A program made the position numbers and the translations under genes. From IMG/VR virus record IMGVR_UViG_3300011115_000919, positions 1 through 33,806 of that record: 33,806 nucleotides of DNA. One strand, 5' to 3'. Position 1 is the first letter of the stretch. Each line of letters starts with the position of its first letter. The notes beneath the pieces were generated by a model, which worked only from the letters and a program-made list of their open reading frames with translations, was not told the origin of the DNA and did not search any database. Source of the DNA: a virus. Below, piece by piece: positions 21,412 to 33,695 of this stretch.

Positions 21412-22374
21412 CTATTGCTTTCCCTGCACAAACACCTCCACGCCTTTGATGGCCTGCTCCAAGCTACCTTCTTCGCATACTGAGCGCAAGGTGCCAATTT
21501 CTAGGGCCATCGTGGCCTTATCAATGGCAATGCCTTTCTCTTTAATCCATGCTGTGACCGCCGTGGTGACTACGTTGGCGAACATGGCCTTGTCTTTGAT
21601 GTCATCGCCCCTAGCCAAACCGATGGCTTCTAGGGCAGCCTTGCCAGCCATCATGCTGGTGCGTTCGTCGGCACAGCCAAAAGGATTGGCCTTACAGAAT
21701 CCAAGAAGGCTTTCTTTGCCATTGAACTCACTGGCTGCATTGGCGGTAACAGTGCTTGCTGTTCCAACAGGAGCATCATCTTTTGCAACTGCTGCTTTTT
21801 TCGCGCTTGCCCGCGCAGCAGGCTTCGCTGTTTCCTGTTGGAGCGGGAGTTTGGGCGGTTCTTTTTCATCGCTCTTGGGAATGTCTTCGCCAGAATAAAG
21901 TTTGAGGCCAAGGCCCGTGAAGGTGGCGATGCACTTGACAGAAGCACGTTGAATGTTGTCACTTACGGCGCGAGCATTCAGTTCAACAAGCGCATTGTGC
22001 TTATTGTCCATCAATGGAAAAACCAAGGCAGGAGTGCGGCGGCAACCATCAGTGAGGAAAGGACGAAGAAGCCAGCAACCTTCCTTCCCAAAAACCGGCC
22101 AGCCAATTGAACTTTCTTCAAACGAAACAAAGAACGTCGGGAATTGCTCCTTGAGGTGGCGGAAGGCAAACGGCCATGACAGGTACGAGAGCCCTTTATA
22201 GTTCTTTTCAACATGTTCCCCTATGGGAAGTTCGTAGGCAGCAGTGAATTTATCAGGGGAAATTTCAAGAGCGGCAAAGATGCCGTTCATGCGATCAGTG
22301 AGAGCCATTGAAGCAGGGGAATCCATGGAAGGAAAATCAGCGGGGTTGTAAAACATAGTCTTGAGAGCAATCAT
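21412..22374 (-). CDS. Sak3-type (DUF1071) single-strand annealing protein
   Basis: 320 aa. Residues 60-166 fit the DUF1071/Sak3 family: YKGLSYLSWPFAFRHLKEQF, LPLMD-like FPLMDNKHNAL, and SDNIQRASVKCIATFTGLGL then LYSGEDIP. These Rad52-superfamily proteins anneal complementary single strands during phage recombination. Residues 170-215 form an Ala/Lys/Pro-rich linker, and the remaining ~100 are a helical tail, perhaps for partner binding. The gene begins by ATGA overlap with the one before it and sits in the same leftward unit as the RecB-like nuclease. Confidence 0.85.
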   Translation of the reverse strand: MIALKTMFYNPADFPSMDSPASMALTDRMNGIFAALEISPDKFTAAYELPIGEHVEKNYKGLSYLSWPFAFRHLKEQFPTFFVSFEESSIGWPVFGKEGCWLLRPFLTDGCRRTPALVFPLMDNKHNALVELNARAVSDNIQRASVKCIATFTGLGLKLYSGEDIPKSDEKEPPKLPLQQETAKPAARASAKKAAVAKDDAPVGTASTVTANAASEFNGKESLLGFCKANPFGCADERTSMMAGKAALEAIGLARGDDIKDKAMFANVVTTAVTAWIKEKGIAIDKATMALEIGTLRSVCEEGSLEQAIKGVEVFVQGKQ

Positions 22375-31597: not shown

Positions 31598-32056
31598 ATG
31601 CCCGACAACTCCTACTACGCAAGTTCCGCGTGGAGGAGCAAACGTCAAGAACGTCTTGATTTTGATGGCCACCAATGCCAAGGCTGCGGCATTACCCGCA
31701 AACAACTTGAAGAATTGTCTTGGCCGTCTTTGCAGGTGCATCATAAAAACGCAGGACCACCGGACTTCATGTACCCATCATTTGGCAACGAGCAAATGTC
31801 AGACCTACTGACTCTTTGCGTTGAATGTCATGACGGCATTACCAATTCTGTCCGCCGCCAGCGTTATAAACTTGATCCCAAAAAGCAAGTTAAGCCCGTT
31901 CTTGTAGCTACATCGTCTCTTTACGTACCATTGCTTTCTAACAGACATCATGTCTCAGCTACCCACAGTACAGATCCGTTTCCAGGGCGTGAGCCCACTA
32001 TTGTGCCACAACGGTCAGACCGCAGATCCTCGCAACGCCTACTCCAAGGCAATTAA
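31598..32056 (+). CDS. HNH endonuclease, 152 aa
   Basis: ATG at 31598 is preceded by a purine-rich AGAGGTG. Motifs: CQGCG, WPSLQVHHKN with the catalytic His, and LLTLCVECHDGITN. About 35 residues at the end share DNA with the next gene in another frame (107-nt overlap). A short -10-like TATGTT lies upstream at 31561. Likely a free-standing homing or repair-type nuclease. Confidence 0.82.
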   Translation: MPDNSYYASSAWRSKRQERLDFDGHQCQGCGITRKQLEELSWPSLQVHHKNAGPPDFMYPSFGNEQMSDLLTLCVECHDGITNSVRRQRYKLDPKKQVKPVLVATSSLYVPLLSNRHHVSATHSTDPFPGREPTIVPQRSDRRSSQRLLQGN

Positions 32057-32585
32057 AGCGATTTCGGGAAAGCGCAAAAAGACTGACTCCGACTACGATG
32101 AGATGGCTCGCCTTGAATGGCTTGCTGGTCTTTATCGCATTGATGGCGATTTGGTTATTCCCGATTATGTGATCGAAAGCACGATGATTGGTGGTGCCAA
32201 AAAGTCCAAACGTGGCCCTCAAGCTAAGTGTGGCCTGTTCTTCACTGAACACGCTCCCCTTCTGTTTGAAGGCAAGCCAGATGTCATTGACGATGAAACA
32301 CTGGCGGAAATGTTTGCCAGTGGTAATTTTACCCACACCATTGGAGTGAAGGTGGGCATGGCGAAAGTGATGCGCACTCGTCCAATGTTCCGTCACTGGA
32401 ACATCAACGCCACGGCTCAGTACGATCCCGACGTGCTGAACCTTGGTGATGTGGCTGAAATGGCTAGCGATGCTGGCAAGCTGGTTGGCCTGGGCGATTG
32501 GAGGCCCAAGCACGGTCGGTTTAACACTGAAGTGATTCCCGTCACTGAAAGTCTGAACCGGATGCTCGCTGAAACAGTAGCTTGA
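31950..32585 (+). CDS. Conserved phage protein, 211 aa
   Basis: MSQLPTVQIRFQGVSPLLCH, then HNGQTADPRNAYSKAIKAIS, GKRKKTDSDYDEMARLEW and VKVGMAKVMRTRPMF; this pattern (ISPLLMHNG ... VMRTRPMF) recurs in many phages by my recollection, function undefined. The N-terminal conserved part lies within the overlap with the HNH gene, so both reading frames appear to be used there. It is the last protein gene before the repeat array. Confidence 0.78.
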   Translation: MSQLPTVQIRFQGVSPLLCHNGQTADPRNAYSKAIKAISGKRKKTDSDYDEMARLEWLAGLYRIDGDLVIPDYVIESTMIGGAKKSKRGPQAKCGLFFTEHAPLLFEGKPDVIDDETLAEMFASGNFTHTIGVKVGMAKVMRTRPMFRHWNINATAQYDPDVLNLGDVAEMASDAGKLVGLGDWRPKHGRFNTEVIPVTESLNRMLAETVA

Positions 32586-32611
32586 TCATGCTGGGCATCC
32601 TTTGGTATAAG
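32582..32611 (+). promoter_or_regulatory. Promoter-like sequence leading into the repeat array
   Basis: TTGATC (32582-32587), 18-nt spacer, TATAAG (32606-32611). It overlaps the stop of the previous gene and points towards the array, with no protein gene for 1.1 kb, so it could drive a noncoding transcript from about 32618. Confidence 0.5.
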
Positions 32612-32694
32612 TCCCAACTTGGCACGCTCAGGTGCGATTGGGCCGGGTGCAATACGGTGGCGTTGGGTCTGACACGGTCGTGCGCGGCAGGGCT

Positions 32695-33494
32695 ATAGCT
32701 GCAGACAGCAGCACTGGGGAGTTCGCTCCCCTCTGCTGCTCTCTTTGGAGAGTAGATAAGGCTGGCTCCGGCGAGATCGGGCATGGCAAAGTAAGGCAAG
32801 TTCCGGTTTGGTAAGGCGACAGTTGCAGGCGGCAGCACGGAGCACTTCGGTGCTCTCTGCTGCTCTCCTTGGAAAGCAGACAAGGCGCGCTCCGGCGAGT
32901 TTCGGTGTGGCGCGGCACGGCAAGGCAGGGTTCGGCGGGGAAACAGTTGCAGACAGCAGCAAGGAGGGCGCGAGCCTTCCCTGCTGCTCTCTTTGGAGAG
33001 CAGACTCGGCATGACTTGGATAGGCAAGCTACGGACGGGCGCTGTCGGGCGGGGTGAGGTTATAACTGCAGACGGCAGCACGGGAGCTTTCGGGCTCCTC
33101 TGCTGCTCTCTATGGAGGGCGGACAAGGTTCGGTTTGGCACGGTCGGGTCCGTTCAGGCATGGCGGTGTCAGGCGATAGTTGCAGACAGCAGCACAGGGG
33201 GCTTATGCTCCCTCTGCTGCTCTCTTTGAAGGGTGGACGAGGCTCGGCAAGCTTCGGCAAGATGCGGCATGGTGTGGGTTGGTCTGGCCAGGCAACAGTT
33301 GCAGACGGCAGCACTGAGGGCTTAGGCTCTCTCTGCTGCCCTCCAAAAGGGCAGATCTGGCCGGGCATGGCCGGGTGCGGATTGGCAGTGTGCGGCCCGG
33401 TCGGGTTTGGCATGGTTTAGCAGGGCAGGACAACAGTTGCAGACGGCAGCAAGGAGCACCTCGGTGTTCCCTGCTGCTCTCTTTAGAGAGTAGA
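32695..33494 (+). repeat. Array of seven double-hairpin modules (candidate structured ncRNA)
   Basis: Modules begin at 32695, 32819, 32943, 33062, 33176, 33295 and 33433, each about 62 nt, separated by 52-77 nt of G-rich degenerate sequence. Each opens with a(c/t)a(g/a)(t/c)TGCAGaC-type bases, then GCAGCA, a variable stem-loop, TGCTGC and a CTCTCTTTGGAGAG-type hairpin. Stem 1 outer: (A/G)GCAGCA with TGCTGC(T/C). Inner tips keep pairing although sequences differ, with loops TTCG (32722), TTCG (32846), GCGA (32970), TTCG (33089), TTAT (33203), TTAG (33322) and CTCG (33460). Stem 2 is TGCTCTC/GAGAGCA-like. The array fills 32586-33570, which has no protein gene. I do not recognise it as a known family. 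Confidence 0.85.
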
Positions 33495-33572
33495 TTTGGC
33501 GGGGTGCGTTCAGGCTAGGCAGGGCACGGCAGGGTCGGGTGGCGTAGGGCCAGGAGCGGTTTGGCACGGTTC

Positions 33573-33602
33573 GCGAAGGAAGCGTTTCGGCGCTTCTTTC
33601 GC
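33573..33602 (+). other. Long hairpin capping the array
   Basis: GCGAAGGAAGCG / CGCTTCTTTCGC, 12 bp with one G-U, and a TTTCGG loop (UUCG with a U-G closing pair). There is no U-tract, so it is not a typical terminator; it may be a 3' stabiliser or processing signal of an array transcript. Confidence 0.7.
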
Positions 33603-33695
33603 GCTTCAAGACCCGGCAGACTTTGTAAAAGAAAATAACAGTTTTTTCGCGAGGCCCGGCCAATGCTGTAATATGCCCTCAAACCCCTCCCCCTC

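Follow-up and report, generated by a model that had tools for sequence, protein, structure and literature searches.

What is the function of the string of folded repeats that follows the last gene of a viral genome fragment? The question is raised by the stretch of DNA analysed here (the window; all 33,806 nucleotides of the IMG/VR record IMGVR_UViG_3300011115_000919). A first-pass annotation had described seven double-hairpin modules in which pairing is preserved while sequence varies. The modules were found at 32686–33500 on the + strand; they are about 61 nt long and recur at start-to-start distances of 114–138 nt. Their inner stems all check out as listed, the outermost pair of stem 1 is indeed A-U in copies 1, 3 and 5, G-U in copies 2, 4 and 7 and G-C in copy 6, and hairpin 2 of copy 6 has changed on both sides. 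In the two-hairpin structure 97.3% of the pairs in the seven copies are standard, compared with 88.1% in shuffles (0 of 500 as high), and slid controls were at most 70% paired. Six pairs display change on both sides (8 of 500 shuffles as high), and two-sided change was counted in 12 cells, against 3.9 in shuffles (0 of 500 as high). The covariation that was to be sought in homologous arrays is present in 53 modules from related phages, which are 99.8% paired with 8 pairs changed on both sides; the suggestion of selection on folded RNA was right in outline. Comparison with Rfam, also proposed in the annotation, gave no match: the search of the window against Rfam 15 at the gathering score returned no known structured RNA family. 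A blastn search with the array as query found nothing among phage and plasmid records. A 15-nt module pattern run over viral and genome contigs was too loose, with only three matches carrying the module, and these three other phage contigs, in which the module occupies the corresponding place, led to a protein search with the gene just upstream of the array.

31950..32585, + strand: vipr, encoding a 211-aa RAMP/Cas7-like protein of PHROG 4652

The profile of this protein (A3) matched PDB entry 36pp, 'SUSP1 Vipr protein', with an E-value of 3.5e-63, and the protein belongs to PHROG 4652 (E=2.5e-48), a family listed until now as of unknown function which, judged by sequence, is Vipr. The AlphaFold model (pLDDT 90.7) resembles Csm3/Cas7 chains (Foldseek E 3.9e-5; VIA Z about 10, up to 11.6), and the predicted structure is a RAMP fold nearest to Csm3/Cas7. 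The match to 36pp and the Csm3/Cas7 fold together identify the small RAMP homologue expected of a Viral Interference Programmable Repeat (VIPR) system. According to the main text of a 2026 preprint (PMC13142463), the Vipr protein of these systems binds vrRNAs in which 9–16 YNNGG units precede a structured 3' tail, and pairing with double-stranded DNA runs through the NN letters, one target base being skipped between dinucleotides. The array is a member of this published system and no new RNA class; with the upstream Cas7-like gene it almost certainly constitutes the VIPR locus of a cyanophage, carrying a string of vrRNAs. The linkers between the modules are the vrRNA guides, and the hairpin modules are the structured 3' tails. 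The earlier statement that no such family was known has been overtaken by the VIPR family (PMC13142463), whereas the idea of a multi-copy processed sRNA came close, every module forming the structured 3' tail of a single small RNA.

The annotation had the repeats and their pairing right and missed that the DNA between the modules is not filler. It is made of tandem GG[C/T]NN pentamers in a strict period of 5, with 10–16 units per stretch, and the eight such tracts of the window, with about 11–16 units each, agree with the roughly 9–16 tandem YNNGG units of a vrRNA. Across 167 related loci the vipr strand has 436 period-5 GGY tracts and the opposite strand a single one; 162 of the 167 loci carry at least one, and unrelated loci had none in 1.18 Mb. 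The array is laid out as follows, with all guides in the period-5 register and all seven tails assigned by repeat, pairing and covariation.

32590..32617, + strand: leader element GCTGGGCATCC..TAAGTCCCA, directly 3' of the vipr stop
32618..32695, + strand: guide 1, 16 NN (TT AC CA GC TG CG GC AC GG TG CT AC CG GC AG TA)
32696..32756, + strand: vrRNA tail 1
32757..32819, + strand: guide 2, 13 NN (AA TG CC GA CG AT AA AA AA CC TT AA GA)
32820..32880, + strand: vrRNA tail 2
32881..32943, + strand: guide 3, 13 NN (AA GC CC GA TC GT GC AC AA AG TC GG AA)
32944..33004, + strand: vrRNA tail 3
33005..33062, + strand: guide 4, 12 NN (TC AT TT TA AA AC CG GC CG GG GA TA)
33063..33123, + strand: vrRNA tail 4
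33124..33176, + strand: guide 5, 11 NN (AA TC TT AC CG CC CA AT GG CA GA)
33177..33237, + strand: vrRNA tail 5
33238..33295, + strand: guide 6, 12 NN (GA TC AA TC AA GC AT GT TT CT CA AA)
33296..33355, + strand: vrRNA tail 6, with compensatory changes in hairpin 2 and in the outermost pair of stem 1
33356..33433, + strand: guide 7, about 16 NN (CT CG AT CG GC TT AG GC CC CG TT AT TT AG AG AA)
33434..33494, + strand: vrRNA tail 7
33495..33572, + strand: guide 8, 16 NN, the last unit, without a standard tail
33572..33604, + strand: 14-bp hairpin GCGAAGGAAGCG..CGCTTCTTTCGC, closing the array after guide 8 (fold z -3.8)

The structured 3' tail of a vrRNA is accordingly represented by seven tails with covariation, guide 8 being without one; the last guide likewise has no standard tail in 47 of 77 arrays. 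The closing hairpin, which has no long T run, is a candidate terminator or alternative tail of guide 8. The leader-like element at 32590–32617 of the window (CTGGGCATCC..GTAAGYCCCAG), which has a weak fold on its own, follows the vipr stop and is found in half of the cyanophage relatives: in 40 of 80 the pattern CTGG..TAAGYCC lies no more than 110 nt from the vipr stop, with 7 chance matches in 808 kb. An apparent excess of changes at the Y position of homologous guides was set aside, because the guide pairs had been selected by NN identity and were therefore biased.

The protein search retrieved 80 close and at least 557 distant relatives of the window's vipr, and the array accompanies the gene across phages with many different hosts and neighbouring genes. 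A Vipr homologue is also encoded by named phages infecting Gordonia, Mycobacterium, Pseudomonas and Salmonella. GGYNN tracts adjoin vipr in 6 of the 7 named phages inspected (MakoManhole, LittleE, Medea1, Trine, BPS15Q2 and LESphi2), with structured modules that differ from those of the window. In the actinobacteriophages MakoManhole and LittleE (L321 2885–3240 and L322 5137–5520) the modules between the tracts resemble tRNA minihelices, with an acceptor-like stem and a T-arm carrying GGTTCGA, some of them without D or anticodon arm; these tRNA-like tails gave no Rfam hit, one odd ARAGORN call and weak folds. The cassette of the Mycobacterium phage LittleE (L322 3551–5501) sits in reverse orientation among tail genes and is flanked by tracts on either side, an arrangement suggestive of movement as a unit. 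In the Gordonia phage Trine the annotated start of gene 40 (L324 4585–5388) lies inside a vrRNA tract (GLGAARHGTARRGKARLGKAW) and is probably wrong. The only Vipr-like matches among 386 cyanobacterial genomes, all from the phylum to which the cyanobacterial locus L126 belongs, are G008:C118 and C151 (L408 and L409), and these are weak (31–44% identity).

If the linkers are guides, their NN letters should find targets. From the window and its 80 relatives 156 guides were decoded and run against both strands of 1.37 Mb of sister-phage DNA, the arrays being masked and skips of 0, 1 or 2 nt allowed. At the 1-nt skip 28 of the 156 guides reached a score of 17, a level attained by none of the shuffled guides, by one guide at the 0-nt skip and by none at the 2-nt skip. 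Pairing of the NN letters with a 1-nt skip is thus found statistically on the clade's 156 guides, and the target statistics confirm the published code for the cyanophage clade. Matches at a 3-nt skip were discarded; they most likely reflect arrays matching one another through unmasked tracts. A score of at least 18 was reached by 23 guides, including guide 5 of the window, for which the target contigs had been retrieved by means of that very guide, so that they are not independent. Mismatches gather at the guide ends. The skip base falls on codon position 3 in 17 of these 23 best matches; several of the remaining 6 have a longest ORF that seems to be a spurious antisense frame, position 1 of which is position 3 on the opposite strand. 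L312 is an example: read in the sense frame it gives IRAGDTIRWRD, as the head gene does. Of the 23 guides, 8 target portal genes, 4 TerL genes and 4 a small head gene, with 7 directed at others. The 22 cyanophage guides other than the window's score 18–25 on foreign contigs versus 6–15 on their own contig, a comparison that covers the available contig sequence rather than whole genomes, several own contigs being only 4–7 kb long. Target statistics and own-contig scores support targeting of sister phages with self-avoidance. Competing mobile elements appear as the targets for the clade, with one candidate only for the window itself.

That candidate belongs to guide 5. IMG/VR was scanned with 8-dinucleotide seeds of guides 1, 5, 6, 7 and 8, and guides 2–4 were compared with the collected DNA only; guide 5 alone of the five scanned guides has a plausible IMG/VR site. 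The site lies in two homologous DUF3987 (primase/helicase-like) genes on contigs L475 and L476, in a conserved zinc-finger-like motif near the N-terminus; the reverse complement of the guide corresponds to the codons C-P-I-C-G-R-V-K-D, and the skip bases fall at wobble positions. We consider the DUF3987 gene a reasonably probable target of guide 5, and estimate the chance that the match is mere luck at a few per cent. Guide 5 has one 1-mismatch site in the 386 cyanobacterial genomes. Besides its primase-like gene, the 8167-bp contig L475 has an integrase gene and an HTH gene similar to a small terminase, and it looks like a plasmid, satellite or prophage.

The seeds of guides 1, 6, 7 and 8 gave only IMG/VR matches that do not extend, with no convincing target among them, and this could mean that the array, although of VIPR type, is decaying and may target nothing living any more. 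The imperfect GGY letters of several guides (irregular pentamers in guides 1–5) and the one guide without a tail point the same way. On the other hand, vipr is intact, as is the HNH motif of the adjoining gene across the clade (see below), the window's tails are almost fully paired, and natural targets are poorly sampled. Moreover, guide 4 has nine NN in common with the nearest relative, L241, the differences being confined to scaffold letters. We regard decay as unlikely.

Upstream of vipr, and overlapping it by 107 nt, lies a second gene, readable as an ORF from 31481, for which the ATG at 31598 is taken as the start.

31598..32056, + strand: HNH endonuclease gene, candidate vap of the clade

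The gene matches PHROG HNH families with E-values down to 1.7e-10. Wherever sufficient upstream sequence is available, the cyanophage loci (79 of 79) have an HNH gene just upstream of vipr and overlapping it; none of the 87 loci from other clades does. For the Vap1-like gene the counts are 85 of these 87 loci and 0 of the 80 from cyanophages. The motif C..C / HH.N / C..CH is intact in 79 of 79. This association makes the HNH protein a candidate partner of Vipr, in the role of vap. The preprint distinguishes seven types of VIPR; in its main text, types III–V have enzymatic accessory genes, and the nuclease-bearing types are those of defence islands (PMC13142463). The window's phage likely has a cyanobacterial host, as the best named matches of its ThyX and helicase are in Synechococcus phage S-CBS4 and that of its tail-tip gene in Prochlorococcus phage MED4-117. 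The window also encodes a Sak-like single-strand annealing protein (21412–22374, - strand; PHROG 8492, E=1.3e-38).

The neighbourhood could be taken to favour one of the roles first proposed, that of a site for packaging (pac/cos) or for replication (an origin), recognised in the form of a cruciform or of wrapped DNA, given that a TerL relative lies upstream in 33 of the 80 cyanophage loci and a portal gene downstream, of type A in 33 and of type B in 31. Other phages, however, carry the gene-plus-tract pair among tail, replication or lysogeny genes, the tracts keep strictly to the vipr strand, and the guide code finds foreign targets, so that we consider such a site very improbable. Equally improbable is a decoy or sponge RNA, for instance CRISPR-repeat mimics that soak up host Cas proteins: the hairpins are multi-copy and the tails superficially resemble CRISPR repeats, but the phage's own RAMP protein gene adjoins the array, the guides follow a targeting code with self-avoidance, and tail sequence differs within one array. 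Neither proposal is supported by an array that goes with vipr in so many hosts and neighbourhoods and whose linkers form a decodable guide code. Packaging-RNA, TRAP-like and CRISPR-mimic readings had been weighed before the Vipr match and were then dropped.

The tails themselves are more elaborate than two hairpins. Each contains four mutually complementary segments, A (CTGC), B (GCAG), C (CTGC) and D (GCAG), with variants CCAC/GTGG, CCAT/ATGG and CTGA/TCAG in relatives, and several tail sequence types occur within one array. Pairing of A with B and of C with D yields three hairpins (fold 1), while pairing of B with C yields the long stem 1 of the first-pass annotation (fold 2); the third hairpin, at the 5' end, excludes that stem, and vice versa. 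Over the 53 tails A-B and B-C are each 99.8% paired, with two-sided changes in both; the likeness of A to C and of B to D keeps covariation from picking the acting fold. For 81 of 102 tails the energies of the two folds are within 3 kcal/mol of each other, and the tails of the window itself divide between them. The tail could be a two-state switch.

For the cyanophage clade, the analysis establishes homology, fold, array code, target statistics, wobble phase and self-avoidance. By the published mechanism (PMC13142463), Vipr would coat the guide via its GGY letters, and the NN letters would pair with double-stranded DNA with a 1-nt skip between dinucleotides. Guides of the clade recognise portal, terminase and head genes of sister phages and do not match their own contigs. 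The vrRNAs of the window's phage are presumably expressed and processed, the tails would take part in capping or processing, and the complex would act by transcriptional block or through the HNH protein as a recruited nuclease. Cyanophage VIPR appears to aim at capsid and packaging genes of sister phages and to spare its own, and the most likely role of the array is to help the window's phage suppress competitors within the same cell; VIPR in cyanophages would then be a weapon between sister phages directed at late structural genes. The recent and unusual claim of RNA-guided DNA recognition by a noncontiguous code has hereby passed an independent computational test in other phages, controlled by shuffled guides and skip lengths and accompanied by wobble phasing and self-avoidance. 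New are the strand bias of the GGY tracts in the 167 loci, the code test in the cyanophage clade, the sister-phage targets, the self-avoidance and the HNH-linked form whose tails have two alternative folds. Set against the preprint's main text, this form may be a new subtype. A fuller version of that proposal, in which a phage-borne HNH nuclease takes the place of the DNA-binding Vap and cuts sister-phage portal and terminase genes at guide-specified sites while each tail switches between three short hairpins and one long one, for example for processing or Vipr loading, is put forward tentatively and is on the doubtful side.

As the SUSP1/Pseudomonas fulva clade VIPR (type II; PDB 36pp) is portrayed in the main text of the preprint (PMC13142463), the cyanophage system shares with it a homologous Vipr, tandem YNNGG units with a structured 3' tail and several vrRNAs per array, the NN code with a 1-nt skip and the skip base mostly at the codon wobble position, and competing mobile elements as targets. 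It differs from that portrayal in the HNH gene that overlaps vipr in place of a Vap1-like DNA-binding gene, in a tail of four complementary segments with two folds and several sequence types per array, and in targets that are the portal, terminase and head genes of sister phages. With class 1 CRISPR-Cas (the Cas7/Csm3 backbone of type III) the locus has in common the RAMP fold (Z about 10) and a guide RNA capped by a structured handle, with periodic unpaired positions. Unlike CRISPR-Cas, in which near-identical direct repeats alternate with aperiodic spacers, the window has module copies only 64–79% identical to the reference copy over 77 nt, tails that vary between copies, spacers of period-5 GGY that form a noncontiguous guide with a conserved scaffold, and, in place of a cas operon, a single small RAMP gene.
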